IMG/VR virus record: IMGVR_UViG_3300012954_002212
Location: 1 to 23,312 of that record
From: a virus
DNA: 23,312 nt
Reading direction: 5' to 3' (one strand)
The first letter of the stretch is position 1. Each line of letters starts with the position of its first letter. This document shows, piece by piece, positions 5,896 to 18,157 of this stretch. Made by a program: the position numbers and the translations under genes. The notes beneath the pieces are model-generated. The model did not search any database. It had not been told where the DNA came from and saw nothing but the letters and a program-made list of their open reading frames with translations.

Positions 5896-6180
5896 ATGGA
5901 AAGAATCGAAGGATTTGAAGAACGCATTATTTACATAGATGGCGACAGTGTTGCGTGTAGTGGAGATAACAATGACCACCCAAAAGTTTATCTTAGAATA
6001 CCACACGATGGACATTATGTTGTTTGTGGATATTGTGATATAAAATATGCACGTAAAGACCCTGATATACCTGAACAAAAAGTTACAGAAGAAAAAGCTA
6101 AAGAATATGGCGGGCCAAAAGAAGCCGAACCAACTAGATATGGAACTTGGGAATATAAAGGAAGGGAGATAGACTTTTGA
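5896..6180 (+). CDS. CHCC zinc-finger protein (NDUFS6-like)
   Basis: The protein has 94 residues. I chose ATG 5896 over the in-frame TTG at 5881 because GGAG lies at 5887-5890. Residues 16-51 read as a CHCC zinc finger: Cys21-Ser-Gly-Asp, His28-Pro-Lys-Val-Tyr-Leu, and Cys44-x2-Cys47. This is the pattern of NDUFS6 and of the short zinc-finger proteins of alphaproteobacteria linked to respiratory complex I. A 43-residue charged tail (52-94) is added, with no recognised motif. It follows the polymerase stop by one base and its stop overlaps the next start. The phage copy could affect host respiration or simply be a zinc-binding adaptor; the role is unknown. The host-like family points to an alphaproteobacterial host. 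Confidence 0.8.
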   Translation: MERIEGFEERIIYIDGDSVACSGDNNDHPKVYLRIPHDGHYVVCGYCDIKYARKDPDIPEQKVTEEKAKEYGGPKEAEPTRYGTWEYKGREIDF

Positions 6181-6518
6181 AAGTAGATATACAAGATATT
6201 GGTGGAGTTATCGCTAAACAAGACGAACGATACATTGTTAAAGATAACACACTGTTACAAAATTTAGTATTAAGTAGTACAACAATGAAGCCTGGCAAAT
6301 CTACGTCAGGACATATACACAAAGGACAAGAAGAAATTTATTTCTTTATTAGAGGTAAAGGCACAATGTATCTAAATGATGAGCCTATGGCAGTTGGTCC
6401 TGGTGATGTTGTATTGATTAAAGATGGTATACATCATAGAGTAGAATCTGATATGTATCAAGGTAAAGACCAAGAACTTTACTTTGTTTGTGCATTTGAT
6501 GGTAGGCGGAATCATTAA
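6177..6518 (+). CDS. Cupin-domain protein, sugar-isomerase-like
   Basis: The protein has 113 residues and starts with TTG overlapping the previous stop (TTGA), with AGGGAG upstream. Cupin motif 1 is present: His46-x-His48, Glu52 and Gly60. Motif 2 has GDVVLIKDGIHH (76-87), with His86 or His87 as the last metal ligand. This is a single-domain metal-binding cupin like the C-terminal part of mannose-6-phosphate isomerase/GDP-mannose pyrophosphorylase enzymes. It is followed by a nucleotidyltransferase and a phosphomannomutase in overlapping genes, so a role in mannose or related sugar metabolism is plausible. The exact reaction cannot be read from sequence. Confidence 0.8.
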   Translation: MKVDIQDIGGVIAKQDERYIVKDNTLLQNLVLSSTTMKPGKSTSGHIHKGQEEIYFFIRGKGTMYLNDEPMAVGPGDVVLIKDGIHHRVESDMYQGKDQELYFVCAFDGRRNH

Positions 6519-6925
6519 TGAAAGTAGGATTTACTTGTTCAACATTTGATTTATTACACGCAGGACACGTACAAATGTTACGTGAAGCAAAAGAACAATG
6601 CGATTATTTAATATGTGCATTACAAATGGATCCTAGTGTAGATCGATCAGAAAAAAATGCTCCTGTGCAAACTATTGTCGAACGCTATACACAATTAAAA
6701 GGTGTAAAGTATGTTGATGAAATTATTCCTTATGGCACTGAAAAAGACCTAGAAGATATATTGACAATGTATCATATAGATGTTAGAATACTTGGAGAAG
6801 AATACAGAGACAAAGATTTTACAGGTAAAGACATTTGTCGTAAGCGTGAAATAGATTTGTATTTTAATAAACGTGATCATAGATTTAGCACTAGTGATTT
6901 AAGAAAGAGAGTATGTGAAGTATAA
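6518..6925 (+). CDS. Cytidylyltransferase-like nucleotidyltransferase
   Basis: The protein has 135 residues and resembles glycerol-3-phosphate cytidylyltransferase (TagD) in length and motifs. Residues 5-18 contain the nucleotide-binding HxGH motif (His14-Ala-Gly-His17) and residues 122-131 (RFSTSDLRKR) correspond to the ISTT-R signature that contacts the nucleotide triphosphate. The family transfers CMP or AMP to a phosphate-bearing substrate such as glycerol-3-phosphate or a sugar phosphate. It overlaps the cupin gene by one base and the phosphomannomutase gene by one base (TAATG junctions), so the three are translationally coupled. The substrate is not known. Confidence 0.85.
   Translation: MKVGFTCSTFDLLHAGHVQMLREAKEQCDYLICALQMDPSVDRSEKNAPVQTIVERYTQLKGVKYVDEIIPYGTEKDLEDILTMYHIDVRILGEEYRDKDFTGKDICRKREIDLYFNKRDHRFSTSDLRKRVCEV
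6761..6789 (+). promoter_or_regulatory. Possible internal promoter before phosphomannomutase gene
   Basis: TTGACA (6761-6766) and TAGAAT (6784-6789) are 17 bases apart inside the cytidylyltransferase-like gene. A transcript would begin about 130 bases before the next gene. Such matches can occur by chance in AT-rich coding DNA. Confidence 0.25.
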
Positions 6926-7638
6926 TGAATAAATTTATATTCGATGTTGACGGCACACTTACACCAAGTAGACAAACTATTCATCCAGAGTTTAAAACAT
7001 TTTTTAAATCATTTATTACACATAATAAAGTATGGTTAGTAACTGGTAGCGATTATAATAAGACAGTCGAACAGCTTGGTGAAGATATTTGTGAAAATGT
7101 TGAGTCTTGTTATAATTGCAGTGGCAATGATGTCTACAAAAAAGGACAAAATGTAGCAAGTAAAACATTTGATGCTCCTAAAGAATTGTATAATTTAATG
7201 CACGGTTGGTTACAAGCAAGTAATTTTCCATTACGTACAGGTAATCATATAGAAGAAAGAACAGGTACAATTAATTTTAGTATAGTAGGACGTAATTGCA
7301 CACTAGGTGAACGTAAACTTTATATACAACACGATTTGCAAAACAAAGAACGTGAAAGTATTGCTTTTCAAATTAATTTAGAATTTCCTGATATAACTGC
7401 AACTATAGGTGGCGAAACAGGAATAGACATATATCGTAAAGGTGGAGATAAAAGTCAAATCTTAGAAGATTTTAACAAGAATGATAAAATTTATTTCTTT
7501 GGTGACAAAATTGTTGAAGGTGGTAATGATTGGCCATTAGCAGTCAAGCTAGATACAAAACGTTGTTTCAATGTTAAAGATTATCGTGATACTTGGGAAA
7601 GACTTGGATACTTTCAGGAAGCGAAGTTAGCACAATGA
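6925..7638 (+). CDS. Phosphomannomutase, eukaryotic-type HAD family
   Basis: The protein has 237 residues, close to the 245-250 of eukaryotic alpha-phosphomannomutases, which interconvert mannose-6-phosphate and mannose-1-phosphate. The HAD nucleophile motif is FDVDGTLTPSRQ (6-17, Asp7 and Asp9), followed by VTGSD and VEQLG. The cap has the family's ERTGTINFSIVGRNC block (about 91-107). IGGETGIDIY and the C-terminal FFGDKIVEGGND (191-202) match the metal-binding end. Bacterial phosphomannomutases belong to an unrelated family, so the eukaryotic-type enzyme is notable here. It lies between a nucleotidyltransferase and a sugar-nucleotide dehydrogenase, consistent with a mannose-nucleotide route. 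Confidence 0.85.
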   Translation: MNKFIFDVDGTLTPSRQTIHPEFKTFFKSFITHNKVWLVTGSDYNKTVEQLGEDICENVESCYNCSGNDVYKKGQNVASKTFDAPKELYNLMHGWLQASNFPLRTGNHIEERTGTINFSIVGRNCTLGERKLYIQHDLQNKERESIAFQINLEFPDITATIGGETGIDIYRKGGDKSQILEDFNKNDKIYFFGDKIVEGGNDWPLAVKLDTKRCFNVKDYRDTWERLGYFQEAKLAQ

Positions 7639-8396
7639 TTATAGCAGGATACGGATTTGTTGGACAGGCATACGAATTACTATTCAAAGACCATAGAAGA
7701 GAAATTGAAATACACGATCCACCTAAAGACAAATATGCTGATTTTTCAAATACAAGTGCTGTGGTAATATGTGTACCTACTCCATCAGCAGAAGATGGTA
7801 GTTGTGATGTAAGTGCTGTGTACAGCACTATAGAACTTTGTAATGAAACAACACCTATATTAATCAAAAGCACAATAAGTTTACAAGGCTGGCAAGATAT
7901 AAAAAATAATTTTCCTAATCATAGATTATGTTTTTCTCCAGAGTTTCTTAGAGCAAAAAACTATATGAATGATATTAAACAATTAGACTGTATTATTTTA
8001 AGTGGTGATACAGATTACTGGCGTGACCAATATAGTTTTAATTGGCCTCAATGCCGTATAAACATTGTTACACCAGAAGAAGCTATTGCTATAAAATATT
8101 TTAGAAATGCTTTCTTAGCAACTAAAGTAAGTTTCTTCAATGAAATTTTTGATTTTTGTAAAGCATATAATTTAGACTATGAAGAAGTGCAAGCAGGTAT
8201 TACAGATGATAAACGTATAGGTTCAAGTCATAGTTATGTATGGCCAGAAGAAGGTATACGTGGATGGGGTGGAATGTGTTTTCCAAAAGACACAAAGGCT
8301 CTATTAAAAATGGCATCAGAAAAAAATATTAATCTAAATACATTGTCGGCAGCAGTTTATTATAACACAAAATTGAAACAAACACTTGACAAATAA
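7635..8396 (+). CDS. Short UDP-glucose/GDP-mannose dehydrogenase
   Basis: The protein has 253 residues from ATG 7635, which overlaps the previous stop (ATGA); an upstream TTG at 7593 lies inside the preceding gene and is not favoured. GYGFVGQA (residues 5-12) is the NAD-binding loop, followed by VVICVPTPS, SPEFLRA and the helix with EAIAIKYFRNAFLATKVSF. The catalytic cysteine is in GGMCFPKDT (Cys about 215). The family oxidises UDP-glucose or GDP-mannose to the uronate and is normally 390-440 residues. Here the C-terminal nucleotide-sugar binding domain is missing after the catalytic motif, so it is either a natural short form or one relying on a partner. The stop is close to a strong promoter for the next gene. 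Confidence 0.85.
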   Translation: MIIAGYGFVGQAYELLFKDHRREIEIHDPPKDKYADFSNTSAVVICVPTPSAEDGSCDVSAVYSTIELCNETTPILIKSTISLQGWQDIKNNFPNHRLCFSPEFLRAKNYMNDIKQLDCIILSGDTDYWRDQYSFNWPQCRINIVTPEEAIAIKYFRNAFLATKVSFFNEIFDFCKAYNLDYEEVQAGITDDKRIGSSHSYVWPEEGIRGWGGMCFPKDTKALLKMASEKNINLNTLSAAVYYNTKLKQTLDK

Positions 8397-8414
8397 AGCA
8401 AAAGTTAGTATAAT
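8386..8414 (+). promoter_or_regulatory. Consensus sigma70 promoter for sliding clamp gene
   Basis: TTGACA (8386-8391), 17-base spacer, TATAAT (8409-8414): a perfect match to the bacterial consensus. The -35 overlaps the last codons of the dehydrogenase gene. Transcription would start near 8421, 15 bases before the clamp start codon, with CGGAG as ribosome site. Confidence 0.85.
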
Positions 8415-8435: not shown

Positions 8436-9164
8436 ATGCAAGATATTCTACAAGACATTGTGAGTCATACACACAGACTAGGTTTTATTACTACACTGAA
8501 AGTTACAGCAGAAGAAGATACTCAAATTGATAGTATGGCTGATGATCGTAGTGTGATTATGACAGCAACAACACATTCGCCAGTTGGTGAATTTAACGGA
8601 ACATTTGGTATGCCAGATCTTGGCAAATTAGATTATCACTTGAAAAATCCAGAGTACAAAGACAATGCAAAGATTGAAGTTGTACAAGCAGAACGCAACG
8701 GAGAAGTGATACCAACACACATACACTTTGAAAATGCATCGGGTGATTTTGAAAATGATTATCGTTTTATGAACAAAGCAATTATTGAAGAAAAACTAAA
8801 AAGTGTAAAGTTCAAAGTCAGCACATATGATGTTGAGATTCAGCCTAATATGGCAGCAATTGCACGTATGAAATTGATGTCAGGCGCACACAGTGAAGAA
8901 ACAGTGTTCCAAGTAAAGACTGAAGATAACAACTTGAACTTTTACTTTGGTGACGAAGCAACACACGCAGGTTCATTTACATTTGAACACGGTATTGAAG
9001 GCAAACTTACACATACTTGGGCGTGGCCAGTTGCACAAACACTTGCTATACTAAACTTAGATGGTGACAAAACAATGAGTATCACTGATCAAGGTGCTAT
9101 GAAAATTAGCGTAGACAGTGGTATGGCAAAATATGATTACATTCTACCAGCGCAACAGAAATAA
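8436..9164 (+). CDS. 45: Sliding clamp, T4 gp45-like DNA polymerase accessory protein
   Basis: The protein has 242 residues (T4 gp45 has 228). The family forms a trimeric ring that tethers the polymerase to DNA and, in T4, activates late transcription. Repeating beta-strand and helix units of a two-domain clamp are visible, and the C-terminus (about 221-242) ends in MKISVDSGMAKYDYILPA, resembling the closing strand and Tyr-x-Leu-Pro end of phage and PCNA clamps. It has the strongest promoter in the window. The overlapping next gene starts at the last base of its stop codon. No clamp loader genes are in the window. Confidence 0.75.
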   Translation: MQDILQDIVSHTHRLGFITTLKVTAEEDTQIDSMADDRSVIMTATTHSPVGEFNGTFGMPDLGKLDYHLKNPEYKDNAKIEVVQAERNGEVIPTHIHFENASGDFENDYRFMNKAIIEEKLKSVKFKVSTYDVEIQPNMAAIARMKLMSGAHSEETVFQVKTEDNNLNFYFGDEATHAGSFTFEHGIEGKLTHTWAWPVAQTLAILNLDGDKTMSITDQGAMKISVDSGMAKYDYILPAQQK

Positions 9165-9583
9165 TGCAAGAAAAAAATAGATTACACTGGACTACAGTAA
9201 TGACAGAAAAAGGTATGCTTTCTATAATAGGCATACTTACTGTTGTTGCGGCAGGTTTAGATGTATATTCTATGATTATGGATCTTAAGATAGAACTTGC
9301 AGATTTATTTCTGCTTTTTATATATACTGAGATTGTAGGTATGGTTGGTGCATACTTTATTAGCAACAGAATACCTGTTACATTGCCTATTATAATTGCA
9401 ATGACAGCATTGTGTAGATTAATTGTGCTACACAGTAAAGACGCAAATCCTTGGGTGCTAGTTGCCGAAGCTGGTGCAATTTTAATTCTTGCAGGCGCCG
9501 CATATGTAATGAGTCAAAAAGATAAGTTAAGTTTAGAAAAGAGAGCAATACGTGAAAAAGGATCTAACACAAACACAGAATGA
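9164..9583 (+). CDS. psiE: PsiE-like phosphate-starvation membrane protein
   Basis: The protein has 139 residues, near the usual PsiE length of about 136, with four membrane helices at about residues 17-37, 46-66, 72-90 and 97-115. The central part LFIYTEIVGMVGAYF and the ITA-like block MTALCRLIVLHSKD (80-93) match the family's signature of Tyr-x-Glu and Arg-Leu-Ile-Val-x-His. PsiE is induced by phosphate starvation in bacteria; its molecular role is not settled. Carriage by a marine phage suggests infection under low phosphate. It directly follows the clamp and overlaps the next gene by 32 bases. Confidence 0.8.
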   Translation: MQEKNRLHWTTVMTEKGMLSIIGILTVVAAGLDVYSMIMDLKIELADLFLLFIYTEIVGMVGAYFISNRIPVTLPIIIAMTALCRLIVLHSKDANPWVLVAEAGAILILAGAAYVMSQKDKLSLEKRAIREKGSNTNTE

Positions 9584-11009
9584 TTATGCTGTGTTTCTTC
9601 CAAGTATAAGTGGCTTTTATGCTACATTTGTAGGTAAACAACGTTTCGGTGAATACGTTGATTACAATCGTGTGCCATCTGGACTTAATGAAGTAGAAAG
9701 TCTAAACTTTTTGAATCCTGATAAAGGAGCATTTCATTATAAGTGGGCTTTGTATTCTGCAGGACACGCAGACTTAGATATAAACAAACACGTAGAAAAA
9801 GAAGATATGTTACGCAACCGCGATAGAGAAAATAGTTGGTTGCTTGGTGACTCTGGTGGTTTCCAAATTGCAAAAGGACTTTGGGAAGGTGACTGGACTA
9901 ATCCTAAATGTCCAAAAGCACAAAAGAAACGTGAACTTGTTGTTAACTGGATGGAAGAATATATGGACTATGGAATGATGTTGGATATTCCAACTTGGAC
10001 TTTCCAAGATCCTAAGGCAGCAAAGGCAGCAAATATTCACAGTTATCAAGATGCTGTAGATGCAACACACATAAACGCAAAATACTATATGGCAAATAGA
10101 CGTGGCAACTTCAAAGTGCTGAACGTATTACAAGGTAGTAACCACGCAGATGCAGATAGTTGGTATGAAGAGTTCAAGCATTATTGCGATCCAGCACAGT
10201 TTCCAGATACACACTTTAATGGCTGGGCAATGGGTGGACAAAATATGTGCGATGTTGATTTGATATTGCGTAGACTTGTGCATCAAATACACGATGGGTT
10301 ACTAGAAGAAGGTGTTCACGATGTTATGCACTTCTTAGGCACAAGTAAGTTAGAATGGGCTGTATTGCTTACAGATATCCAACGTGCAGTGCGTAAGTAT
10401 CATAATAAAAACTTTATGATTACATATGACTGTGCATCGCCTTTCTTAGCAACAGCAAATGGACAAGTTTATCACACAATACGTATTGAAGATCGTGGCA
10501 AGTGGAGTTATATGATGTCGCCAGGCGCTGATGATAAGAAGTATGCAACAGACACAAGAACATTTAAAGATGCACTTGAAACAGATGGTCTTTTGAAAGC
10601 ATTTGAAGACTCTCCTATTAGTAAAGAATGTCAAATAAAAGACATTTGTATTTACAAACCAGGCGATTTGAATAAAATTGGTAAAGAAGGCAAAACAAGT
10701 TGGGACTCATTTAGTTATGCATTACAAATGGGTCATAATGTATGGATGCACATTGAAAGCACACAACGAGCAAACGAACGTTATGACACAGGAGAATATC
10801 CTTATATGTTGATTGACGAACGTTTTGAACGTATAGAGTTTAAACAAGTTGTTGATGAGATCTTTAGTTTAAAAGATAGACAAAAAAGTTTAGATTTAAT
10901 AACAAAATATTCTAAGTTTTGGATGCAAGTTATAGGCACAAGACTTAATGTAGGAAAAAAGACTGTAAACGCAAGCACAAAGTTCGGAGAACTATTTGAG
11001 GAGATCTAA
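9552..11009 (+). CDS. dpdA: DpdA-like DNA 7-deazaguanine transglycosylase
   Basis: The protein has 485 residues, starting at GTG 9552 with GAGAG six bases upstream; the next Met is residue 86, past conserved sequence. Residues 97-107 contain LLGDSGGFQIA, the catalytic Asp100 plus DSGGF signature of tRNA-guanine transglycosylases, and a second conserved acidic motif MMLDIP (142-147) is likely the nucleophile region. The Zn-binding Cys cluster of bacterial TGT is not obvious. In phages this branch (DpdA) exchanges guanine in DNA for preQ0 or a derivative. QueD-like, FolE and QueE genes are nearby, as in other DpdA phages. A tRNA TGT is the alternative, but the length and company fit DpdA. Confidence 0.8.
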   Translation: MKKDLTQTQNDYAVFLPSISGFYATFVGKQRFGEYVDYNRVPSGLNEVESLNFLNPDKGAFHYKWALYSAGHADLDINKHVEKEDMLRNRDRENSWLLGDSGGFQIAKGLWEGDWTNPKCPKAQKKRELVVNWMEEYMDYGMMLDIPTWTFQDPKAAKAANIHSYQDAVDATHINAKYYMANRRGNFKVLNVLQGSNHADADSWYEEFKHYCDPAQFPDTHFNGWAMGGQNMCDVDLILRRLVHQIHDGLLEEGVHDVMHFLGTSKLEWAVLLTDIQRAVRKYHNKNFMITYDCASPFLATANGQVYHTIRIEDRGKWSYMMSPGADDKKYATDTRTFKDALETDGLLKAFEDSPISKECQIKDICIYKPGDLNKIGKEGKTSWDSFSYALQMGHNVWMHIESTQRANERYDTGEYPYMLIDERFERIEFKQVVDEIFSLKDRQKSLDLITKYSKFWMQVIGTRLNVGKKTVNASTKFGELFEEI

Positions 11010-11222
11010 ATGGGCGACGACAACGATAAATTAATATCTCACCTTGAAGAATTAAGAAAAAAACACAGAGCACTTGACACAGAAATACAAAAGTTATATA
11101 CTCATCATATTACCGAAGAGTTAAGACGGTTAAAAACAGAAAAACTTTGGTTAAAAGATGAAATTTATAGAATAGAAAGACAACTAATAGACAAAGGCAT
11201 ATATGTAAATGGATACCAATGA
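11010..11222 (+). CDS. YdcH/DUF465-family small coiled-coil protein
   Basis: The protein has 70 residues that are almost entirely helical. The spacing of H-x2-LD-x2-I (around 19-26) and LRRLKTEKLWLKDEI (38-52) matches the DUF465 (YdcH) pattern of a helical hairpin ending in L-x2-K-K-x-L-x-LKDEI. The family is widespread in alphaproteobacteria and its role is unknown. It starts one base after the dpdA-like stop. Confidence 0.7.
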   Translation: MGDDNDKLISHLEELRKKHRALDTEIQKLYTHHITEELRRLKTEKLWLKDEIYRIERQLIDKGIYVNGYQ

Positions 11223-11382
11223 AAAAGAACTTAGGTTACTTGCATTAGAAATGGCTTTAGAAGATTTGGATAAGATTATTGCAAATATGAAAGAAAAAAA
11301 TTATCCGCCAGAACAGTTAAATGAATACATTAAAAAACGTTGGAATACGTGGAACGAAATATATCAGGTGAAACAGCAATGA
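11209..11382 (+). CDS. Small helical protein of 57 residues, unknown
   Basis: ATG 11209 lies inside the end of the preceding gene and the stop overlaps the next start (ATGA). The protein is highly charged and helical (MDTNEKELRLLALE...YIKKRWNTWNE). Tight overlap on both sides and typical codon use support it as real. No homologue is recognised. Confidence 0.65.
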   Translation: MDTNEKELRLLALEMALEDLDKIIANMKEKNYPPEQLNEYIKKRWNTWNEIYQVKQQ

Positions 11383-11882
11383 AAAGAGATTATGATAGCG
11401 GTGTAAATGAAAGTGTAAACTTTTTTATTGGCACAGAAGTAGAACACACGCCAAAGTTTGGTAAGAAAACGCTGTTCGTTGTAGGTGTACAAAACTTTGA
11501 AGATATTGTTGAACACGCAAACAAAGCAGGTGTTGATCATATTTATATTGGTGCCAATATGAGCTTTGAACCAAATGAAGCATATGATAATATGATCTTT
11601 CCATTGTTGAAAGAAGGTTTTTGGATAACATTAGATTTTGATATTAAAGATGTAGAATGGGTATTAGAATCCGGTTACACTGAATACAATCGTTTTATTC
11701 CAATGATTAGTGCAAAACTGCCATACATAAGTCAACTAGGATATAATGCGTGTCTTAAAATAGATGACAAAGACTTTGATGCAACTAATCCGGGTGTATG
11801 GGTGCATAGGATGCACGATTTAAAAGAGAAGGCTGTTTTTACTGATTGGTCTAAATACACCACAGACGAAATCATAGGTTGA
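11379..11882 (+). CDS. Unknown protein between dpdA-like and queD-like genes
   Basis: The protein has 167 residues from ATG 11379, which overlaps the preceding stop; an in-frame TTG at 11340 is less likely. It has an alternating strand and helix pattern: TLFVVGVQNF, DHIYIGANMSF, GFWITLDFDI, FIPMISAKLPY and ACLKIDDKDF are likely beta strands, as in half of a TIM barrel or another alpha/beta fold. It ends with WVHRMHDLKEKAVFTDWSKY. I do not recognise the family. Its place between a DNA transglycosylase and a QueD-like gene makes a part in 7-deazaguanine synthesis or in handling modified DNA worth testing, but the sequence does not show it. Confidence 0.75.
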   Translation: MKRDYDSGVNESVNFFIGTEVEHTPKFGKKTLFVVGVQNFEDIVEHANKAGVDHIYIGANMSFEPNEAYDNMIFPLLKEGFWITLDFDIKDVEWVLESGYTEYNRFIPMISAKLPYISQLGYNACLKIDDKDFDATNPGVWVHRMHDLKEKAVFTDWSKYTTDEIIG

Positions 11883-11886
11883 CAAT

Positions 11887-12360
11887 ATGAGCCAAGAACG
11901 TTATTATGAATATATGTTAAGGCGCTTTAGAGAGGAAAATGCAAAATTGAATAAAACATTAGAAATTGCAAAACGTAGTATATGGGTTACATTTCGTAAA
12001 GAAGGTATACATTTATATCCTGCGGCAAAAGACGATCCAGCACTAGCAACAGGTGGCTGGGACGATGTAAGTTTTTTAGGTGTAGCACATAGACACATCT
12101 TTCATTTCAAAGTGCAAATTGAAGTTACGCACAATGATAGAGATATTGAATTTATTCAATTCAAGCGTTGGTTAGAAAGTTTATATGATGATAAAACTAT
12201 CGAACTCAACCACAAGTCTTGTGAAATGATAGCAGATGACTTGTATACACAGATTAACAACAAATATCCAGGCCGGTTTGTTGTAATTGATGTCGCCGAA
12301 GATGGCGAAAACGGCTGTTCAATCATTTATCCTAACTTAGAAGCAAAAAAGGATTATTAA
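11887..12360 (+). CDS. queD: QueD-like T-fold protein (6-carboxytetrahydropterin synthase-like)
   Basis: The protein has 157 residues. QueD turns the product of FolE, dihydroneopterin triphosphate, into 6-carboxytetrahydropterin on the way to preQ0. Visible T-fold features are His68-x-His70-x2-His73 (HRHIFHF), a likely zinc site in place of the usual HGH, then NDRDIEFIQFKRWLE (83-97), SCEMIADDLY (111-120, the usual S-x-E helix) and VAEDGENG near 135-142, where the family has a conserved Glu. The N-terminal 35 residues are an extra helical part. The motif spacing is unusual for QueD, so a divergent T-fold enzyme is possible. It sits in the same run as the dpdA-like gene. Confidence 0.55.
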   Translation: MSQERYYEYMLRRFREENAKLNKTLEIAKRSIWVTFRKEGIHLYPAAKDDPALATGGWDDVSFLGVAHRHIFHFKVQIEVTHNDRDIEFIQFKRWLESLYDDKTIELNHKSCEMIADDLYTQINNKYPGRFVVIDVAEDGENGCSIIYPNLEAKKDY

Positions 12361-12364
12361 GGAA

Positions 12365-12553
12365 ATGACTATCAAAAATCCTGTCGTTAATAAAATCTTT
12401 AACGACTTAGACGAACTGCACGATTTTTGTCGTACAGAAGGTTATCCATTTAACCAGGCAGATCTTTACAAAAAAGATGCCCGTGTTTGGCAGGCCTTCA
12501 CCAAATATAAAAACTGGATCCGAGCTAAGAATCGGAATAAAGGACGTAATTAA
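12365..12553 (+). CDS. Small conserved phage protein, unknown
   Basis: The protein has 62 residues with an AAGGA ribosome site just upstream and a one-base overlap with the next start. It is helical, with a Lys/Arg-rich end (AKNRNKGRN) that may contact nucleic acid. The pattern FNDLDELHDFC...DLYKKDARVWQAFTKY recalls small proteins of T4-like marine phages; function unknown. Confidence 0.7.
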   Translation: MTIKNPVVNKIFNDLDELHDFCRTEGYPFNQADLYKKDARVWQAFTKYKNWIRAKNRNKGRN

Positions 12554-13716
12554 TGAGAAAACTGTTTTATATGGGCTTAGAGCCTTATGAAGGCAGGTAC
12601 ACATTACAGTTAGAAGAGTGGTCACGAAGAGCGTTTTTAAGACGTGACATCGACTGGGTTAGTGTGCCTGGTACTACTATTGATAACACAAAAGCAATTC
12701 AAGTCGGTCAGGTGTTAGATGCACACGGCCGTTCTTACTTTGCAATGTCGCAAATGATGAACTTAGTGCAAATGATGCGTAACGGTGAAGTTACAGGCGA
12801 AGATGTTGTATTCTTTGAAGATATGTTTCAGCCTGGTATGGAATCGTTGCCTTACATTATGGATCAGATTCCAGCAGAACAACGCCCGCAAGTTTGGATA
12901 CGTTGTTTAGCACAGGCTGTAGATCCAGATGACTTTGTACACGTTTGGGGTATGGGCAAGTGGATGAGTTTGTATGAAGAAATGTGCAATGAGTTTGTTA
13001 CAGGCGTATTAGCAAGTAATGAAGAAATGGTTGCACATATGAAAATAGCAAACTGGAAAGCACCTATTTACAACATTAGTGGACTTGCGTTTGATAAAAC
13101 AGAAGTGCAACTTAGAGTAGGCGAAATTAAGCCTTGGGACGAACGTGAAAATCGTGTAGTATTTGCGGCACGTTTTGATCAAGAAAAACAGCCAGACTTT
13201 TTTATGGATATTGCTGAACAACTCAATGATGCAGATATTGAGTTTGCTATTCTACAAGGTGGTCCATTAAGAAGTAACAATATAAAGTATATTGATAGAG
13301 CAAGAGCTCTTGAAAAAGCAGGTTGCTTAAAAATTTATGAAAACTTAAAAAAGAATGATTACTATCATATTGTAAATCATAGTAAAGTTTTATTTAACTG
13401 TGCATTACAAGACTGGACAAGTAATACAGTAAGTGAAGCAGATGCATTAGGTTGTAATGTATTGTTTCCTGCATATAGAAGTTTTCCTGAAATATTTGCA
13501 AACGATTACACAAGAATGTATGTTCCTTGGAGTACAGAAGATGCAGTCAACAAACTACAGCCATTGCTAGATTCTCCACACAAAGACTTAGGTAAGATTA
13601 GTGATTGGACTAGTGCAACAATTGATCGTTATATTGATATTATGCAAGGCAACGGTGAACAGTGGCGTAGAGATAGCAATCGTTATAGAGATCACGTAGC
13701 GGAGACAAAGTATTGA
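12553..13716 (+). CDS. GT-B glycosyltransferase
   Basis: The protein has 387 residues with two Rossmann-like halves. Residues about 199-213 (NRVVFAARFDQEKQP) match the second-domain opening strand of GT4-type glycosyltransferases, and about 288-310 (SNTVSEADALGCNVLFP and YRSFPE) resemble the E-x7-E donor-binding segment. Such enzymes transfer sugar from a nucleotide sugar to DNA, protein or lipid. The following gene encodes a nucleotide-sugar epimerase and overlaps by four bases, so the sugar may be its product. The acceptor is unknown: modified DNA bases or a virion protein are both possible. Confidence 0.8.
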   Translation: MRKLFYMGLEPYEGRYTLQLEEWSRRAFLRRDIDWVSVPGTTIDNTKAIQVGQVLDAHGRSYFAMSQMMNLVQMMRNGEVTGEDVVFFEDMFQPGMESLPYIMDQIPAEQRPQVWIRCLAQAVDPDDFVHVWGMGKWMSLYEEMCNEFVTGVLASNEEMVAHMKIANWKAPIYNISGLAFDKTEVQLRVGEIKPWDERENRVVFAARFDQEKQPDFFMDIAEQLNDADIEFAILQGGPLRSNNIKYIDRARALEKAGCLKIYENLKKNDYYHIVNHSKVLFNCALQDWTSNTVSEADALGCNVLFPAYRSFPEIFANDYTRMYVPWSTEDAVNKLQPLLDSPHKDLGKISDWTSATIDRYIDIMQGNGEQWRRDSNRYRDHVAETKY

Positions 13717-14588
13717 AAGTTTTAGTTACAGGTGCAACAGGATACATAGGTAGTCACGTTTGTAAACTACTAAAAGAACGTGGACATTTTGTTGTTGGTT
13801 GGGATATTAATATTCACGGCGAACACAATGATGTATCTGCATACTGTGATGATTTTCATAATGTTGATATTACTGGGCAATATGTTGGTGGCATTTATGA
13901 TGCTATTGTGCATTTAGCAGGCCGTAGTGTTGTGCCAGATAGTATGAAGGAGCCTAGTGAATACTATAGAGTAAATGTAATGGGTACACTAAATCTTCTA
14001 AATAAGACAACTTGCCCACACGTTTTGTTTGCTAGTACAAGTAGTGCTTGGGAAATGGCAAGTCCATATGCACGTAGCAAAGTAGCCGCAGAAGATGTAA
14101 TAAAGGAGAAAGCTGATGGATACACTATATTTAGATTTTTTAACGTATCTGGTACTGACGGGCATAATCGTCAATTGGGCGTTCCTACCCATCTTATTCG
14201 TGTTGCTGCTATGGTGGCTGCTGAGAAACTACCCGACCTTAAGATCTTTGGCGTGGACTATGATACTAGGGATGGTACTTGTATTCGTGATTATATTCAC
14301 ATTGCTGATTTGGCTAGTGCCATTGCTAATGCCGTTGAACGAGGACCAGCTAATACAGACTATGAATGTCTTGGTTCTAACGTAGGATATAGTGTACGTG
14401 AAGTTATCAATACTATGGAGAAAGTTACAGGTAAATCAATAATTACTGTAGAGGCACCAAGAAGAGAAGGTGATGCTGTTACAAGTGTTGTTGATAATTT
14501 AAGTGACCTTGTAACACTAGAAAAAACGATTGAGGATATGTGTCTTGATCAATACAAATTAGAAAGGAGCAGAAATGCACTCGAGTGA
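13713..14588 (+). CDS. Short GalE-like nucleotide-sugar epimerase (SDR)
   Basis: The protein has 291 residues, about 45 shorter than GalE. It starts with TTG overlapping the glycosyltransferase stop (TTGA). GATGYIGSH (7-15) is the NAD loop; the active site has STSSAWE (108-114) and Tyr119-x3-Lys123; RFFNVSGTDG (141-150) and GTCIRDYIHIADL (about 186-200) match the UDP-glucose 4-epimerase family. It probably interconverts UDP-sugars for the neighbouring glycosyltransferase. Codon use changes inside the gene: from 14112 to 14354 the 11 Ala codons are GCT or GCC and no ACA occurs, unlike the A-ending codons elsewhere. This suggests a recombined segment. Confidence 0.9.
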   Translation: MKVLVTGATGYIGSHVCKLLKERGHFVVGWDINIHGEHNDVSAYCDDFHNVDITGQYVGGIYDAIVHLAGRSVVPDSMKEPSEYYRVNVMGTLNLLNKTTCPHVLFASTSSAWEMASPYARSKVAAEDVIKEKADGYTIFRFFNVSGTDGHNRQLGVPTHLIRVAAMVAAEKLPDLKIFGVDYDTRDGTCIRDYIHIADLASAIANAVERGPANTDYECLGSNVGYSVREVINTMEKVTGKSIITVEAPRREGDAVTSVVDNLSDLVTLEKTIEDMCLDQYKLERSRNALE

Positions 14589-14850
14589 ACTAAAAGGAAC
14601 TGATAATTTATATTACTGGGTTTTACGTGCCATCGAATATTTAGACGATGGTGAATTTTTGGAAGGTATAATGTGGTTTGAAGAAGAAGCAAAACATATT
14701 TTAGATAATATTCAAGAGTGGCCTGAAAATCCCCAATTGCTTGAAGATTGTAGAGATGCACGTGAAATGATTCAAAATGAAGATTGGCCAGGTGTATTAG
14801 AGGCAATTGAAAATCTTAGAGGACATATGGAAAATATGGGGTATCTATAA
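14575..14850 (+). CDS. Small acidic helical protein, unknown
   Basis: The protein has 91 residues with AAGGAG upstream, overlapping the epimerase end by 14 bases and the next start by one. It is acidic and helical, Trp-rich (WVLRAIEYLDDG, WFEEEAKHILD, WPGVLEAIENL), possibly a TPR-like pair of helical hairpins. No family recognised. Confidence 0.75.
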   Translation: MHSSELKGTDNLYYWVLRAIEYLDDGEFLEGIMWFEEEAKHILDNIQEWPENPQLLEDCRDAREMIQNEDWPGVLEAIENLRGHMENMGYL

Positions 14851-15218
14851 TGCGAGATCACGCTGAAACTGTACATATAACTACTGAGGATCTTATTGAT
14901 AGCGATGTTCAAGTTACAACAACGTACGATCCTTTATATGATATAGATTTAACATCAATAAGTTCAACCGATACTATTACAATTGATACAAATACTGTAG
15001 ATACTTTATTAACAGGTGAAGATCAAGTTTATACACTAACTGGATATAATACGCCAGTTGTTTTTGAAGATATAATGCCAGAAGTATCCAAAGTAGAAGA
15101 TATGTGTAATGAATATCCTGCATTACAAAAAGCATATGAAAATTTTAAAAGCATATATGCAATGGTACATCAGGATTATGTTGGTAACAGAAAAAATGAA
15201 GAAGAGGTTCCATTTTAA
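14850..15218 (+). CDS. Unknown protein with Thr-rich N-terminus and conserved C-terminal helix
   Basis: The protein has 122 residues. The first 70 are rich in Asp, Thr and Ser (strand-forming, acidic), then residues about 77-110 form a helical part, MPEVSKVEDMCNEYPALQK and AYENFKSIYAMVHQDY. The pattern M-C-x-E-Y-P-A-L-x-K is reminiscent of short proteins in marine T4-like phages. Function unknown; it starts at the last base of the previous stop. Confidence 0.7.
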   Translation: MRDHAETVHITTEDLIDSDVQVTTTYDPLYDIDLTSISSTDTITIDTNTVDTLLTGEDQVYTLTGYNTPVVFEDIMPEVSKVEDMCNEYPALQKAYENFKSIYAMVHQDYVGNRKNEEEVPF

Positions 15219-15439
15219 TGCAACATAGTATCGAGCAATGGATTGATAGAATCAATGCAATGAAAGATTTGTGCATACAAGCACACAGAGTACGGAATGA
15301 ATTTTCTGAAATAAGCAATAAAAAATATGATGCCGCAACTTGTAAACATATGCTAGAACAAGTGCAAGAAATGGCACGTGGCATTGCACACGAAAAAATT
15401 ACTGAAATAAAAACAGAGATGGACGAATGGAAAAAATAG
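15218..15439 (+). CDS. Small helical protein, unknown
   Basis: The protein has 73 residues, entirely helical and charged, with a coiled-coil-like C-terminal half (HMLEQVQEMARGIAHEKITE). It overlaps the previous stop by one base and the next start by 13 bases. No recognised family. Confidence 0.7.
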   Translation: MQHSIEQWIDRINAMKDLCIQAHRVRNEFSEISNKKYDAATCKHMLEQVQEMARGIAHEKITEIKTEMDEWKK

Positions 15440-15954
15440 ACAGGAAATATTATTCTTGGGATGATGTACAAAAATGCGCTCATAAGTTAGCACTTGAAAT
15501 GTACAAAAATAATTTTCGTCCTAATTACATTGTAGGACTTAATAGAGGCGGATTGCCTTTAAGTGTAATATTAAGCCACCTACTAGACTGTAATCATTAC
15601 ACACTAGATGTGCGTTTACGTGATAGTAAAGAACAGCCAGAAAGTAATTTATGGATGGCTGAAGATGCACTAGGTTATCACGATGGAAAATGTAAACCAA
15701 AAATGCGTAAACAAATATTAGTTGTAGATGATATCAACGACACAGGCGCTACGTTTGATTGGATCAAACAAGACTGGGAATCGGGTTGTTTACCTGATAG
15801 CATAGGGTGGGAAGATGTTTGGCACGAAAATGTCCGTTTTGCTACAATGTGCGAGAAAACACACACAAATTTTGGCAATGTAGACTATGTATGGGAAGAA
15901 ATAGATACTAGCGAAAAAGATACTTGGATTGTTTTTCCTTGGGAATATGATTAA
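15427..15954 (+). CDS. Phosphoribosyltransferase (type I)
   Basis: The protein has 175 residues. The PRPP-binding signature ILVVDDINDTGAT is at 97-109, and YIVGLNRGGLPLSVIL (34-49) forms the PPi loop. This is the hypoxanthine/xanthine-type phosphoribosyltransferase fold, joining a purine base to ribose-5-phosphate from PRPP. It may salvage purines for phage DNA synthesis; a base other than normal purines is possible given the deazaguanine genes nearby. The C-terminus is rich in Trp and acidic residues (VWEEIDTSEKDTW). Substrate not determined. Confidence 0.85.
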   Translation: MEKIDRKYYSWDDVQKCAHKLALEMYKNNFRPNYIVGLNRGGLPLSVILSHLLDCNHYTLDVRLRDSKEQPESNLWMAEDALGYHDGKCKPKMRKQILVVDDINDTGATFDWIKQDWESGCLPDSIGWEDVWHENVRFATMCEKTHTNFGNVDYVWEEIDTSEKDTWIVFPWEYD

Positions 15955-15960
15955 TAAATA
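15953..15960 (+). promoter_or_regulatory. Possible T4-type late promoter
   Basis: AATAAATA differs by one base from the T4 late promoter box TATAAATA. It lies about 25 bases upstream of the small Cys-rich gene and overlaps the end of the previous gene's stop region. There is no other intergenic space nearby. Confidence 0.35.
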
Positions 15961-15984
15961 ATTATAAACAACAAGGAGGGAAAT

Positions 15985-16116
15985 ATGAGTTGTGGGTGCG
16001 GAAGAAGTCCAACTGGTAGATGTATTGGTTGGCATAGCTTAACTGAGGAACAATACCTCGAAAAGAAAGCTCAATATGAAGAGAGACAGAGACTAAAAAA
16101 GGAGAAAAGCCAATGA
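15985..16116 (+). CDS. Cys-rich mini-protein (43 residues)
   Basis: The gene has a consensus AAGGAGGG site at 15973-15980 and an overlap (ATGA) with the next start. The protein begins MSCGCGRSPTGRCIGWHSL, with Cys3, Cys5, Cys13 and His17 as a likely metal site, then a charged helix ending KKEKSQ. From memory, similar CGCGRSPTG proteins occur in T4-like cyanophages with unknown role. Confidence 0.75.
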   Translation: MSCGCGRSPTGRCIGWHSLTEEQYLEKKAQYEERQRLKKEKSQ

Positions 16117-16319
16117 GTATGAGTGAACAATTAGCCAAAGCTGCCAGGATGCACGCCGAAGGCGAGCTAGAAAGAGCTAAAACGAATATTATGGTATATA
16201 TGAATCAAAGTGTTGGTATAGGCGAACACGCAGATATTGTAGAAGCAATACAAAATGAATTAGACACTATGGCGGCAGCCAGTGATAGAATTGAAATGAT
16301 TGAAAAATATTTTAGTTAA
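16113..16319 (+). CDS. Small helical protein, unknown
   Basis: The protein has 68 residues; ATG 16113 overlaps the previous stop, and ATG 16119 two codons later is an alternative. It is amphipathic and helical, with no cysteines or motif known to me. The stop lies just before the folE promoter. Confidence 0.7.
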   Translation: MSMSEQLAKAARMHAEGELERAKTNIMVYMNQSVGIGEHADIVEAIQNELDTMAAASDRIEMIEKYFS

Positions 16320-16322
16320 TTG

Positions 16323-16351
16323 TTGACAAAAGATCTAAATAGTGTTACTAT
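16323..16351 (+). promoter_or_regulatory. Sigma70-type promoter of folE
   Basis: TTGACA (16323-16328), 17 bases, TACTAT (16346-16351). The layout and -10 variant are identical to the promoter of the dsbA-like gene. Transcription would begin near 16358, which is the first arm of a hairpin. Confidence 0.75.
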
Positions 16352-16356
16352 AAACA

Positions 16357-16374
16357 ATAGACATCCTCGTCTAT
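16357..16374 (+). promoter_or_regulatory. Hairpin at 5' end of folE transcript
   Basis: ATAGAC (16357-16362) and GTCTAT (16369-16374) pair over a six-base loop ATCCTC. The stem would form at or near the first transcribed base, before the ribosome site CGGAG. It could protect the RNA 5' end or act as a DNA operator. Confidence 0.45.
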
Positions 16375-16389
16375 AACTCGGAGAATTAA

Positions 16390-17097
16390 ATGACAGAAGA
16401 AGTAAAAGTCAGTCAAGTTGTACGTGAAAGACTTAAAAAAAATAACGTGCGTTTTTTTGCAAATGATAATATCAGTGAACACATAAGCGAGTGGGAACTT
16501 GAAGAGATCAAGAACGAACTTGCTTATAAGTTTGAAGATGTTTTACAAACATTGATTATCGATACTGAGAACGATCCTAACAGTATTGACACTGGTAGAC
16601 GTATGGCAAAAATGTATGTCAACGAAATTATGTCTGGTCGATATAATCCAATGCCAGCACCTAATGCTTTTCCTAATTATGTAAATGAAGGTGAAGGTTA
16701 TGAAGGTATGTTGGTTGTGCGTAGTGAACTTACAAGTTTGTGTTCACATCATCACCAAACTGTTAAAGGTGTAGCATACATTGGTATTATTGCTGGTCCT
16801 AAGTTACTAGGTTTGAGTAAATACACACGTATTGCACAGTGGTGTGCTATGCGTGGAACACTACAAGAAGAACTAAATGTAATGATTGCTGATGAAATTC
16901 AGAAACATACAGGAAGTGAAAATGTTGGTGTTTATGTACAAGCCACGCACGGTTGTTGTGAAAATAGAGGTATCAAAGCACACAGTAGTTTAACACAAAC
17001 TACAGTGTTACGTGGTGCATTTAAAAATGATCCAGCAACTAAAAAAGAGTTTATCGATAACGTTAAACTACAACAGCAATTTGCACAGGGGTCATAA
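16390..17097 (+). CDS. folE: GTP cyclohydrolase I
   Basis: The enzyme opens GTP to dihydroneopterin triphosphate, the first step toward folate and toward preQ0. Of 235 residues, the zinc and catalytic residues are visible: Cys118 and the HHH run 120-122 in TSLCSHHHQT, Cys189 in THGCCENRG, and Arg193. LGLSKYTRIAQW (140-151) is the usual helix after the active site, and QEELNV follows. It is translated from its own promoter and ends one base into the next gene. The link to queE downstream and to the dpdA and queD-like genes indicates that the pterin route feeds 7-deazaguanine here. Confidence 0.95.
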   Translation: MTEEVKVSQVVRERLKKNNVRFFANDNISEHISEWELEEIKNELAYKFEDVLQTLIIDTENDPNSIDTGRRMAKMYVNEIMSGRYNPMPAPNAFPNYVNEGEGYEGMLVVRSELTSLCSHHHQTVKGVAYIGIIAGPKLLGLSKYTRIAQWCAMRGTLQEELNVMIADEIQKHTGSENVGVYVQATHGCCENRGIKAHSSLTQTTVLRGAFKNDPATKKEFIDNVKLQQQFAQGS

Positions 17098-17261
17098 TGG
17101 CAGAACCAGTAGATGTAAGTAAAAAACACTTTTATATTAGTTTAGTAAAAAGTGGTGTACGTATCGCAGGATGCGTAGTTGCTTTAGCAACAGGTAGTTG
17201 GGGTTGGTTAGCCTTAGGTTTACTTGTTGCTGAAGTCCTCGGTATTGCGGAGGAACTATAA
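17097..17261 (+). CDS. 54-residue membrane protein between folE and queE
   Basis: ATG 17097 overlaps the folE stop and the gene's stop overlaps the queE start by one base. The protein begins MAEPVDVSKKHFY, then has a long hydrophobic stretch (about 20-48) able to form one membrane helix. Function unknown; the tight coupling to both genes supports it as real. Confidence 0.7.
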   Translation: MAEPVDVSKKHFYISLVKSGVRIAGCVVALATGSWGWLALGLLVAEVLGIAEEL

Positions 17262-18157
17262 TGAAGTTACGCTATAGTGAAGCATTTTATAGTGTACAAG
17301 GCGAAGGCAAGTTTGTAGGAGTACCTAGTGTATTCCTACGTACCTTCGGTTGTAACTTTCGCTGTATGAATTTTGGTGTTGATAAAAGCGTTGGCGATCG
17401 TTGGGAACAACACAAGCGTGGTGAACGTTACAATGCAGAAGTAAAGCAATTACTTGCTGATGGCATTCACGAAACTACAAAAGAATTTAATGATCTGCCT
17501 ATTGTACACACAGGTTGTGATACATATGCAAGTATCTATCCAGAATTTAAACATTTCAATATGCTTAAAGATGTAGATGAAGTTGTAGAACATTTACTAA
17601 GTTTATTACCAGAAGGCAAATGGACAATGGATAATGGCCAAGATGTACATTTGATTATGACTGGTGGCGAACCGTTGTTGGCGTGGCAACGACTGTACGT
17701 AGAATTATTTGAACATCCACGGATGAGGGATTTGAAAAATGTCACATTTGAAACAAATACTACACAACATCTTAAAGATGATTTCTATGACTACCTCAAC
17801 ACTCAAGACAGATTTGAAGTCACTTGGTCTTGTTCCCCGAAACTTAGCGTTAGCGGAGAACCTTGGGAAACTGCTATTAAGCCTGCTGTGGCTGCTGACT
17901 ATAGGCGTGTTAACGGCAGCGATATGTATCTCAAGTTTGTTGTCGCTGATCAAGACGATGTTGACGAAGTCGCTAGAGCTGTTAGTGCCTATCGTGAAGC
18001 AGGTGTCAACGTTCCTGTATATCTTATGCCGCTTGGGGGTAGGTCGGAAGAATACACTCTCAACGTACAAGAGGTGGCGGACCTCTGTATGGAACGAGGG
18101 TGGAGGTTCTCGCCTAGACTCCACATCAGCTTATTCGGAAATGCCTGGGGAACTTAA
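17261..18157 (+). CDS. queE: QueE, 7-carboxy-7-deazaguanine synthase
   Basis: A radical SAM enzyme that contracts 6-carboxytetrahydropterin to 7-carboxy-7-deazaguanine. Residues 9-30 (FYSVQGEGKF...RTFG) are the family start. The cluster cysteines are Cys31 and Cys35 (CNFRC), but the third lies at Cys86 in GCDT, after a 50-residue stretch, instead of two residues later. MTGGEPLL (around 133-140) is the SAM-binding GGEP motif, and the C-terminus is RFSPRLHISLFGNAWGT. GAGG near 17249 gives the ribosome site. Codon use in the second part (about 17780-18140) changes to T- and C-ending codons. It overlaps the 29-residue reading frame at its end. Confidence 0.92.
   Translation: MKLRYSEAFYSVQGEGKFVGVPSVFLRTFGCNFRCMNFGVDKSVGDRWEQHKRGERYNAEVKQLLADGIHETTKEFNDLPIVHTGCDTYASIYPEFKHFNMLKDVDEVVEHLLSLLPEGKWTMDNGQDVHLIMTGGEPLLAWQRLYVELFEHPRMRDLKNVTFETNTTQHLKDDFYDYLNTQDRFEVTWSCSPKLSVSGEPWETAIKPAVAADYRRVNGSDMYLKFVVADQDDVDEVARAVSAYREAGVNVPVYLMPLGGRSEEYTLNVQEVADLCMERGWRFSPRLHISLFGNAWGT

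Follow-up and report, generated by a model that had tools for sequence, protein, structure and literature searches.

The following concerns a DNA stretch of 23,312 bases (IMG/VR record IMGVR_UViG_3300012954_002212), which is a fragment of a larger virus record and is here called the window, and a group of genes in it for a putative modification of DNA by 7-deazaguanines. The source virus is a marine phage of bacteria with a T4/RB69-type polymerase. An earlier note, made from the sequence, had proposed a dispersed pathway of DpdA-like, QueD-like, FolE and QueE genes; all four were found on the plus strand where it had placed them (Table 1), and its statement on FolE and QueE was borne out, both being intact by family match and motifs; QueE, for instance, has kept its three invariant cysteines C31, C35 and C86, plus TGGEP. 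The term "dispersed" proved misleading, since the order of genes is kept in about 160 IMG/VR loci (some of them overlapping, all related): family B polymerase, sliding clamp, DpdA, a conserved protein of 180 amino acids (aa), QueD-like protein and glycosyltransferase (GT), then a xanthine/guanine-type phosphoribosyltransferase (XPRT), FolE and QueE. A division into two transcripts is not shown either: the genes all point the same way, and no gap between them exceeds 163 bp. The glycosyltransferase, which had been taken for an interruption, is an obligate member of the module; it was present in 101/101 loci reaching far enough, and homologues were found in the isolates PA5oct, Phosso, BUCT-ZZ01, ACP17 and X1.

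In PA5oct the order is Pol-clamp-DpdA-GT-QueD-like-QueE, in Phosso it is Pol-clamp-QueD-like-GT-FolE-QueE, with dpdA elsewhere in the genome, and in BUCT-ZZ01 it is QueE-XPRT-QueD-FolE-GT2-DpdA-QueD-like-GT1. The latter phage, ACP17 and X1 possess the same gene set but a DpdA2-type enzyme. The 180-aa protein had no family match; its homologues are encoded in PA5oct (E=7e-63) and in the Acidovorax phage ACP17 (E=2e-27, there beside dpdA; confirmed by hhalign). Nearly always adjoining dpdA, it probably belongs to the modification system. A "glycosylase" of Phosso and a small protein of X1 were ruled out as further homologues by hhalign.

Table 1. Features of the window (positions counted from its first base; TGT, tRNA-guanine transglycosylase; PTPS, 6-carboxytetrahydropterin synthase).
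Feature	Position	Strand	Basis
T4/RB69-type family B DNA polymerase	3231..5894	+	phrog_262 E=2e-197; best PDB match 1clq DNA polymerase E=1.5e-67
Cupin, cytidylyltransferase-like, PMM/HAD-like and UDP-glucose-dehydrogenase-like genes	6177..8396	+	Family matches
Sigma-70-like promoter TTGACA-17-TATAAT before clamp gene	8386..8414	+	Perfect, 12/12 positions
Predicted sliding clamp with PCNA fold, 242 aa, just before dpdA	8436..9164	+	AlphaFold, Foldseek, locus conservation
Predicted DpdA-like DNA-guanine transglycosylase, 485 aa	9552..11009	+	D100SGGFQ, D145, Q194G, D293 invariant; TGT fold; relatives
DpdA C-terminal tail, predicted disordered, residues 463-485, short helix STKFGELFEEI	10938..11006	+	Predicted local distance difference test (pLDDT) <50; motif scans
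Conserved protein without assigned function, 180 aa, beside dpdA	11340..11882	+	In 148/160 loci
QueD/PTPS paralogue	11887..12360	+	phrog_17812 E=8e-34
GT1/GT4-type glycosyltransferase	12553..13716	+	Pfam Glycos_transf_1 2e-7
GalE-like nucleotide-sugar epimerase	13713..14588	+	TIGR01179 E=2e-60, below cut-off
Xanthine/guanine-type phosphoribosyltransferase (XPRT)	15427..15954	+	Pfam 2e-9; PRK09177 3e-11
FolE, GTP cyclohydrolase I	16390..17097	+	Pfam E=2e-36; CSHHH and HGCC motifs intact
QueE, radical SAM 7-carboxy-7-deazaguanine synthase	17261..18157	+	PHROG phrog_2076 E=5e-53

The DpdA-like transglycosylase and the sliding clamp

The DpdA-like protein had no match in Pfam, PHROG or NCBIfam, and sequence searches of the PDB with the protein or its profile gave chance matches only. 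Cultured relatives were detected by tblastn in the Pseudomonas jumbo phages of the PA5oct/Paride group (34% identity, E=3e-71), in Vibrio phage 2.275.O and in Sinorhizobium phage Phosso, together with weak matches to proteins annotated as containing a TGT domain; more than 570 relatives were present in IMG/VR stretches. When an AlphaFold model built from 63 sequences (pLDDT 90) was compared with the PDB by Foldseek, the first 19 places were all taken by tRNA-guanine transglycosylases (probability 1.00, E-values from 7e-6 to 5e-4), followed by a clear break in the scores; the TM-scores were modest (0.3–0.54). The motif DSGGF at residues 100-104, pointed out previously, is part of a DSGGFQ which, like D145, D293 and Q194-G195, is invariant in 63/63 sequences. 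These aspartates presumably correspond to Asp102, Asp156 and Asp280 of the Zymomonas TGT.

The zinc motif CxCxxC, known from tRNA TGT, was found in 0/82 rows across three overlapping alignments of DpdA (A1, A2 and A4). The profile containing distant members (A1) matched a DpdA2 profile, which included the enzyme of Vibrio phage nt-1, with a probability of 93.5 and E=2e-7; alignment A2 yielded just 8% probability, because it is shallow. A direct search of Vibrio phage nt-1 with the A1 profile gave no match, and neither did the DpdA1 phages 9g and CAjan, nor CP220; as regards DpdA1 this is a weak test, since remote members could escape. DNA of Vibrio phage nt-1 contains dPreQ0 (PMC6884629). The protein can be classified as a DpdA-type DNA-guanine transglycosylase, related to DpdA2 and probably of a separate subfamily; its activity on DNA we infer. 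Homology to TGT would also be compatible with an enzyme acting on tRNA, in which case the genes should raise the queuosine content of the host. This appears highly improbable, considering the missing CxCxxC, the profile match to DpdA2, the grouping of the gene with those for polymerase and clamp, and that QueA, QueG and QueH are not known in phages (PMC6884629).

For the 242-aa protein encoded upstream of dpdA, an AlphaFold model with a pLDDT of 92.8 was obtained, for which Foldseek retrieved PCNA (1plq; 6.7e-11, TM 0.69) and hundreds of other clamps. By its modelled structure, the protein is a sliding clamp of the PCNA fold. In 163/164 informative loci, its gene precedes dpdA by less than 1.5 kb. 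Neither the clamp nor the clamp-binding-like tail of DpdA, described below, had been mentioned in the earlier note. The clamp family, phrog_12062, is labelled "unknown", and the homologue in PA5oct, EST35_0314, is annotated as a "structural protein". Between clamp gene and dpdA, a gene for a PsiE-like membrane protein (window 9164-9583) is inserted, as is also the case in a few relatives.

The C-terminal peptide common to polymerase and DpdA

The polymerase of the window ends with TTFNNLFEWS, which was used as a reference for a clamp-binding-like peptide. A similar sequence is present in the predicted disordered tail of DpdA, where a short helix was predicted over STKFGELF. The protein ends encoded in eight genomes were then scanned for the motif of each phage's own polymerase terminus. 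In six of the eight, no protein other than polymerase and DpdA had that terminus, namely in two contigs belonging to this lineage (2/185 open reading frames (ORFs) in G001, which is from the same phage, and 2/269 in G002), in Vibrio 2.275 (2/888), in ACP17 (2/908; polymerase PSLDDLFE, DpdA TTLDELFE), in X1 (2/901; SSLESLFG and QSLEELFG, respectively) and in Moby (2/758; SSLEDLFGW and NSLDDLFG). A seventh, BUCT-ZZ01, with 3/508 ORFs (polymerase STLDDFFS, DpdA SLDSFFD), adds only a second glycosyltransferase of the cluster (SLEDFFND). In PA5oct, FNSLFD is located about 30 residues before the end of DpdA, and otherwise only the polymerase of this phage matches. The flavours of the peptide pair phage by phage, in the order polymerase/DpdA: LFEWS/LFEEI, NNTDLFDW/NNNDLFGW, SLDDLFE/TLDELFE, TLDDFFS/SLDSFFD and SLESLFG/SLEELFG. 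A polymerase-type terminus on DpdA is thus found likewise in a second DpdA subfamily. Within the family of the window, FxxLF is kept in 106 of 117 distinct DpdAs, and the 11 without it bear a new tail ending with LW[EDS] (five entries assigned to tail class B are an artefact of the regular expression and belong properly to class A).

Two side observations may be added. The second glycosyltransferase of the Synechococcus phage BUCT-ZZ01 (L105:14772-16115), which is encoded between FolE and DpdA, ends with GSLEDFFND, as if it were acting on DNA at the fork. ORF388 of nt-1 (L193:31416-32096), a protein of no assigned function in the 7-deazaguanine cluster of this phage, ends with NSLANFF and could be an adaptor.

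In phage T4, gp33 and gp55 bind the clamp gp45 via a C-terminal LDFL motif (PMC9690074), and the alpha-glucosyltransferase binds gp45 as well (PMC13216743). The tail of DpdA suggests a polymerase-like, putative clamp-binding peptide; since DpdA ends in the tag which the polymerase seems to use for the clamp, DNA may be modified right behind the copying machinery. Short hydrophobic motifs are easily found, the family has likewise conserved the GTRLNVGKKTVNA stretch preceding the peptide, and the peptide is missing from some DpdA2s, so that a chance resemblance, or a part of the DpdA structure, had to be considered. We regard this explanation as quite unlikely, because the peptide tracks the flavour of each phage's polymerase and does not recur at other protein ends in those genomes, is situated in a segment predicted to be disordered, and was regained in a new tail where it had been lost.

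Biosynthetic genes and the modified base

QueC was not found in the window, in agreement with the earlier note, which in a fragment of 23 kb would prove nothing by itself. A pure fragment artefact was rejected, because complete relatives are without QueC, too. In nine DpdA-bearing isolates, QueC and the pair of GT plus QueD-like protein are mutually exclusive (4 vs. 5): nt-1, Vibrio 2.275, pf16 and Moby contain QueC and lack both the QueD-like protein and a GT of this family, whereas PA5oct, Phosso, BUCT-ZZ01, ACP17 and X1 contain the pair and no QueC above the cut-off. The exclusion between QueC and GT (Fisher p=0.008 for the nine isolates, with phylogeny ignored) holds inside each DpdA subfamily. 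Weak matches to the QueC superfamily were obtained in several relatives. Beyond the window, a distant ATP pyrophosphatase of the QueC superfamily was detected (L234:3050-3874, on a 67-kb contig of the same phage; also L085, L087, L089 and L090), with SGGADS and four C-terminal cysteines, which is encoded within consecutive radical SAM genes. This radical SAM array is possibly a separate biosynthetic system.

The QueD-like protein aligns to PTPS/QueD with E=2e-5. It has kept the three zinc-binding histidines and the glutamate of the pterin site, which binds the ring; the catalytic cysteine and the Asp-His pair of QueD are absent in all 10 aligned members. True QueD coexists with it in PA5oct, BUCT-ZZ01 and ACP17. 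Due to the missing catalytic residues and the coexistence with true QueD, the protein, whose divergence had been noticed previously, is probably not QueD, but rather a processing enzyme for a 7-deazaguanine. Cui et al. reportedly described in 2023 the QueC-independent bases dCDG and 7-deazaguanine, plus DpdL, a decarboxylase for 7-carboxy-7-deazaguanine (CDG).

A preQ0-type base had been expected from the gene set. While modification of DNA by a 7-deazaguanine is well supported, the identity of the base as preQ0 has become weaker, because GT and QueD-like protein replace QueC in complete relatives and the latter protein is devoid of the catalytic residues of QueD. An ordinary preQ0 pathway would need QueC from the host or from a distant QueC-like gene, with DpdA inserting preQ0 as in CAjan and nt-1, and GT and QueD-like protein being bystanders. 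Hosts usually make preQ0 (PMC6884629), and the QueC-superfamily protein of the same phage could be invoked as well; still, we consider this pathway unlikely, since the isolates are divided so strictly between QueC and the pair, and if preQ0 were the product, one would expect queC to have been retained by phages that keep folE, queD and queE.

We think it probable, on the basis of sequences and models, that the module encodes a clamp-tethered and QueC-independent system for 7-deazaguanine modification of DNA, with possible glycosylation; chemistry and clamp binding we infer. FolE, QueD (provided by the host or encoded in another part of the genome) and QueE would convert GTP to CDG. In place of QueC, the QueD-like zinc protein and the glycosyltransferase would act on CDG, or on the base once it is in DNA. 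DpdA should exchange guanine of replicated phage DNA for the 7-deazaguanine, i.e., post-replicatively, while its disordered C-terminal peptide would bind the clamp encoded upstream and hold the enzyme at the fork, as is expected of the polymerase C-terminus. The GT may glycosylate the new base. As DpdA frees one guanine per exchange, XPRT, which was found in 74/160 loci (many of these being incomplete) and in BUCT-ZZ01, may be a guanine-recycling enzyme.

The base could also be free of sugar, i.e., CDG or 7-deazaguanine introduced by DpdA, with GT, epimerase and UDP-sugar genes forming a pathway for surface polysaccharide. For phage Bipper, a CDG base independent of QueC had been anticipated (PMC6884629), CDG could be processed by the QueD-like paralogue, and GT clusters for surface glycans are known in cyanophages (PMC7824862). 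This version appears rather doubtful, in view of a GT between or beside dpdA and the gene for the QueD-like protein in five isolates and in 101/101 loci, taken over two DpdA subfamilies, and of the clamp peptide on the second glycosyltransferase of BUCT-ZZ01.

Several points weigh against a clamp-tethered, QueC-independent system. With nine, the number of isolates is small, they are related to each other, and the p-values ignore phylogeny. The DpdA2 of nt-1 and the DpdA of pf16 have no peptide, and in PA5oct and about one third of the DpdA family the peptide is internal and followed by an acidic tail. The QueC-superfamily protein is encoded on the 67-kb contig of the same phage, 37 kb from dpdA, and could thus provide a QueC-type step. 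Finally, the GT could serve surface polysaccharide synthesis, as was proposed for GT clusters of cyanophages (PMC7824862). A further generalization, namely a widespread class of hypermodification with clamp-tethered DpdA, a CDG-derived and QueC-independent base which is then glycosylated by a dedicated GT, and recycling of guanine by a phage phosphoribosyltransferase, is tentative, with the chances somewhat against it.

Of the remaining features, the GalE-like epimerase may supply a sugar donor. The genes between polymerase and clamp, whose presence varies among relatives, may supply sugar nucleotides or may have an unrelated role. Promoter-like matches as a whole are at the level of chance, 47 against an expected 42, although the sequence before the clamp gene is perfect. 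A scan for tRNA detected none.

Comparison with known systems

Modification of DNA by 7-deazaguanines is already known, and so is a deazaguanine system with a transglycosylase in PA5oct (Iyer et al. 2021; PMC7824862). The identification of the clamp, the polymerase-type tail of DpdA in two subfamilies, and the exchange of QueC for GT were not found in the literature searched; a search for clamp-DpdA or glycosylated 7-deazaguanine DNA yielded nothing relevant beyond the precedent of the T4 alpha-glucosyltransferase. How a transglycosylase that swaps bases in finished DNA gets to a large proportion of the guanines ahead of packaging lacks an explanation, and a clamp tether of the polymerase type, which seems to have arisen in two subfamilies of DpdA, offers a direct and testable answer. 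That QueC is excluded by GT and a catalytically altered paralogue of QueD points to a modified base, as yet unmeasured, both in jumbo-like phages abundant in aquatic habitats and in the cultured phages PA5oct/Paride, Phosso, ACP17, X1 and BUCT-ZZ01. If it exists, such a base would matter for evasion of restriction and CRISPR, for phage engineering and for the sequencing of these genomes.

Compared to the known set of 7-deazaguanine genes in phages (dpdA, folE, queD, queE, queC), folE and queE are present in the window and true queD and queC are not; the QueD-like protein shares with QueD/PTPS the zinc triad and glutamate, without the catalytic residues. The DpdA2 of Vibrio phage nt-1 and T4-like phages (Hutinet et al. 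2019; PMC6884629) is likewise of the TGT superfamily, with DSGG and catalytic aspartate, FolE and QueE beside it and no CxCxxC. The DpdA of the window is beyond simple sequence detection from it and carries the clamp peptide, which is absent in nt-1, and QueC of the nt-1 system is replaced here by glycosyltransferase and QueD-like protein. The T4 alpha-glucosyltransferase is also a DNA-modifying enzyme with a clamp contact; it differs in acting on hydroxymethylcytosine and in belonging to another enzyme family, and the contact is not the main determinant of its modification level (PMC13216743). The DpdAs of ACP17, X1, Moby and BUCT-ZZ01 end in a hydrophobic-acidic peptide of the type known from the C-termini of T4 gp33 and gp55 (PMC9690074), which are, however, transcription factors and not base-modifying enzymes. 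The closest cultured relatives are the phages of the PA5oct/Paride group, which have the same order of genes; there, the peptide of DpdA is internal, and the clamp bears the annotation of a structural protein.

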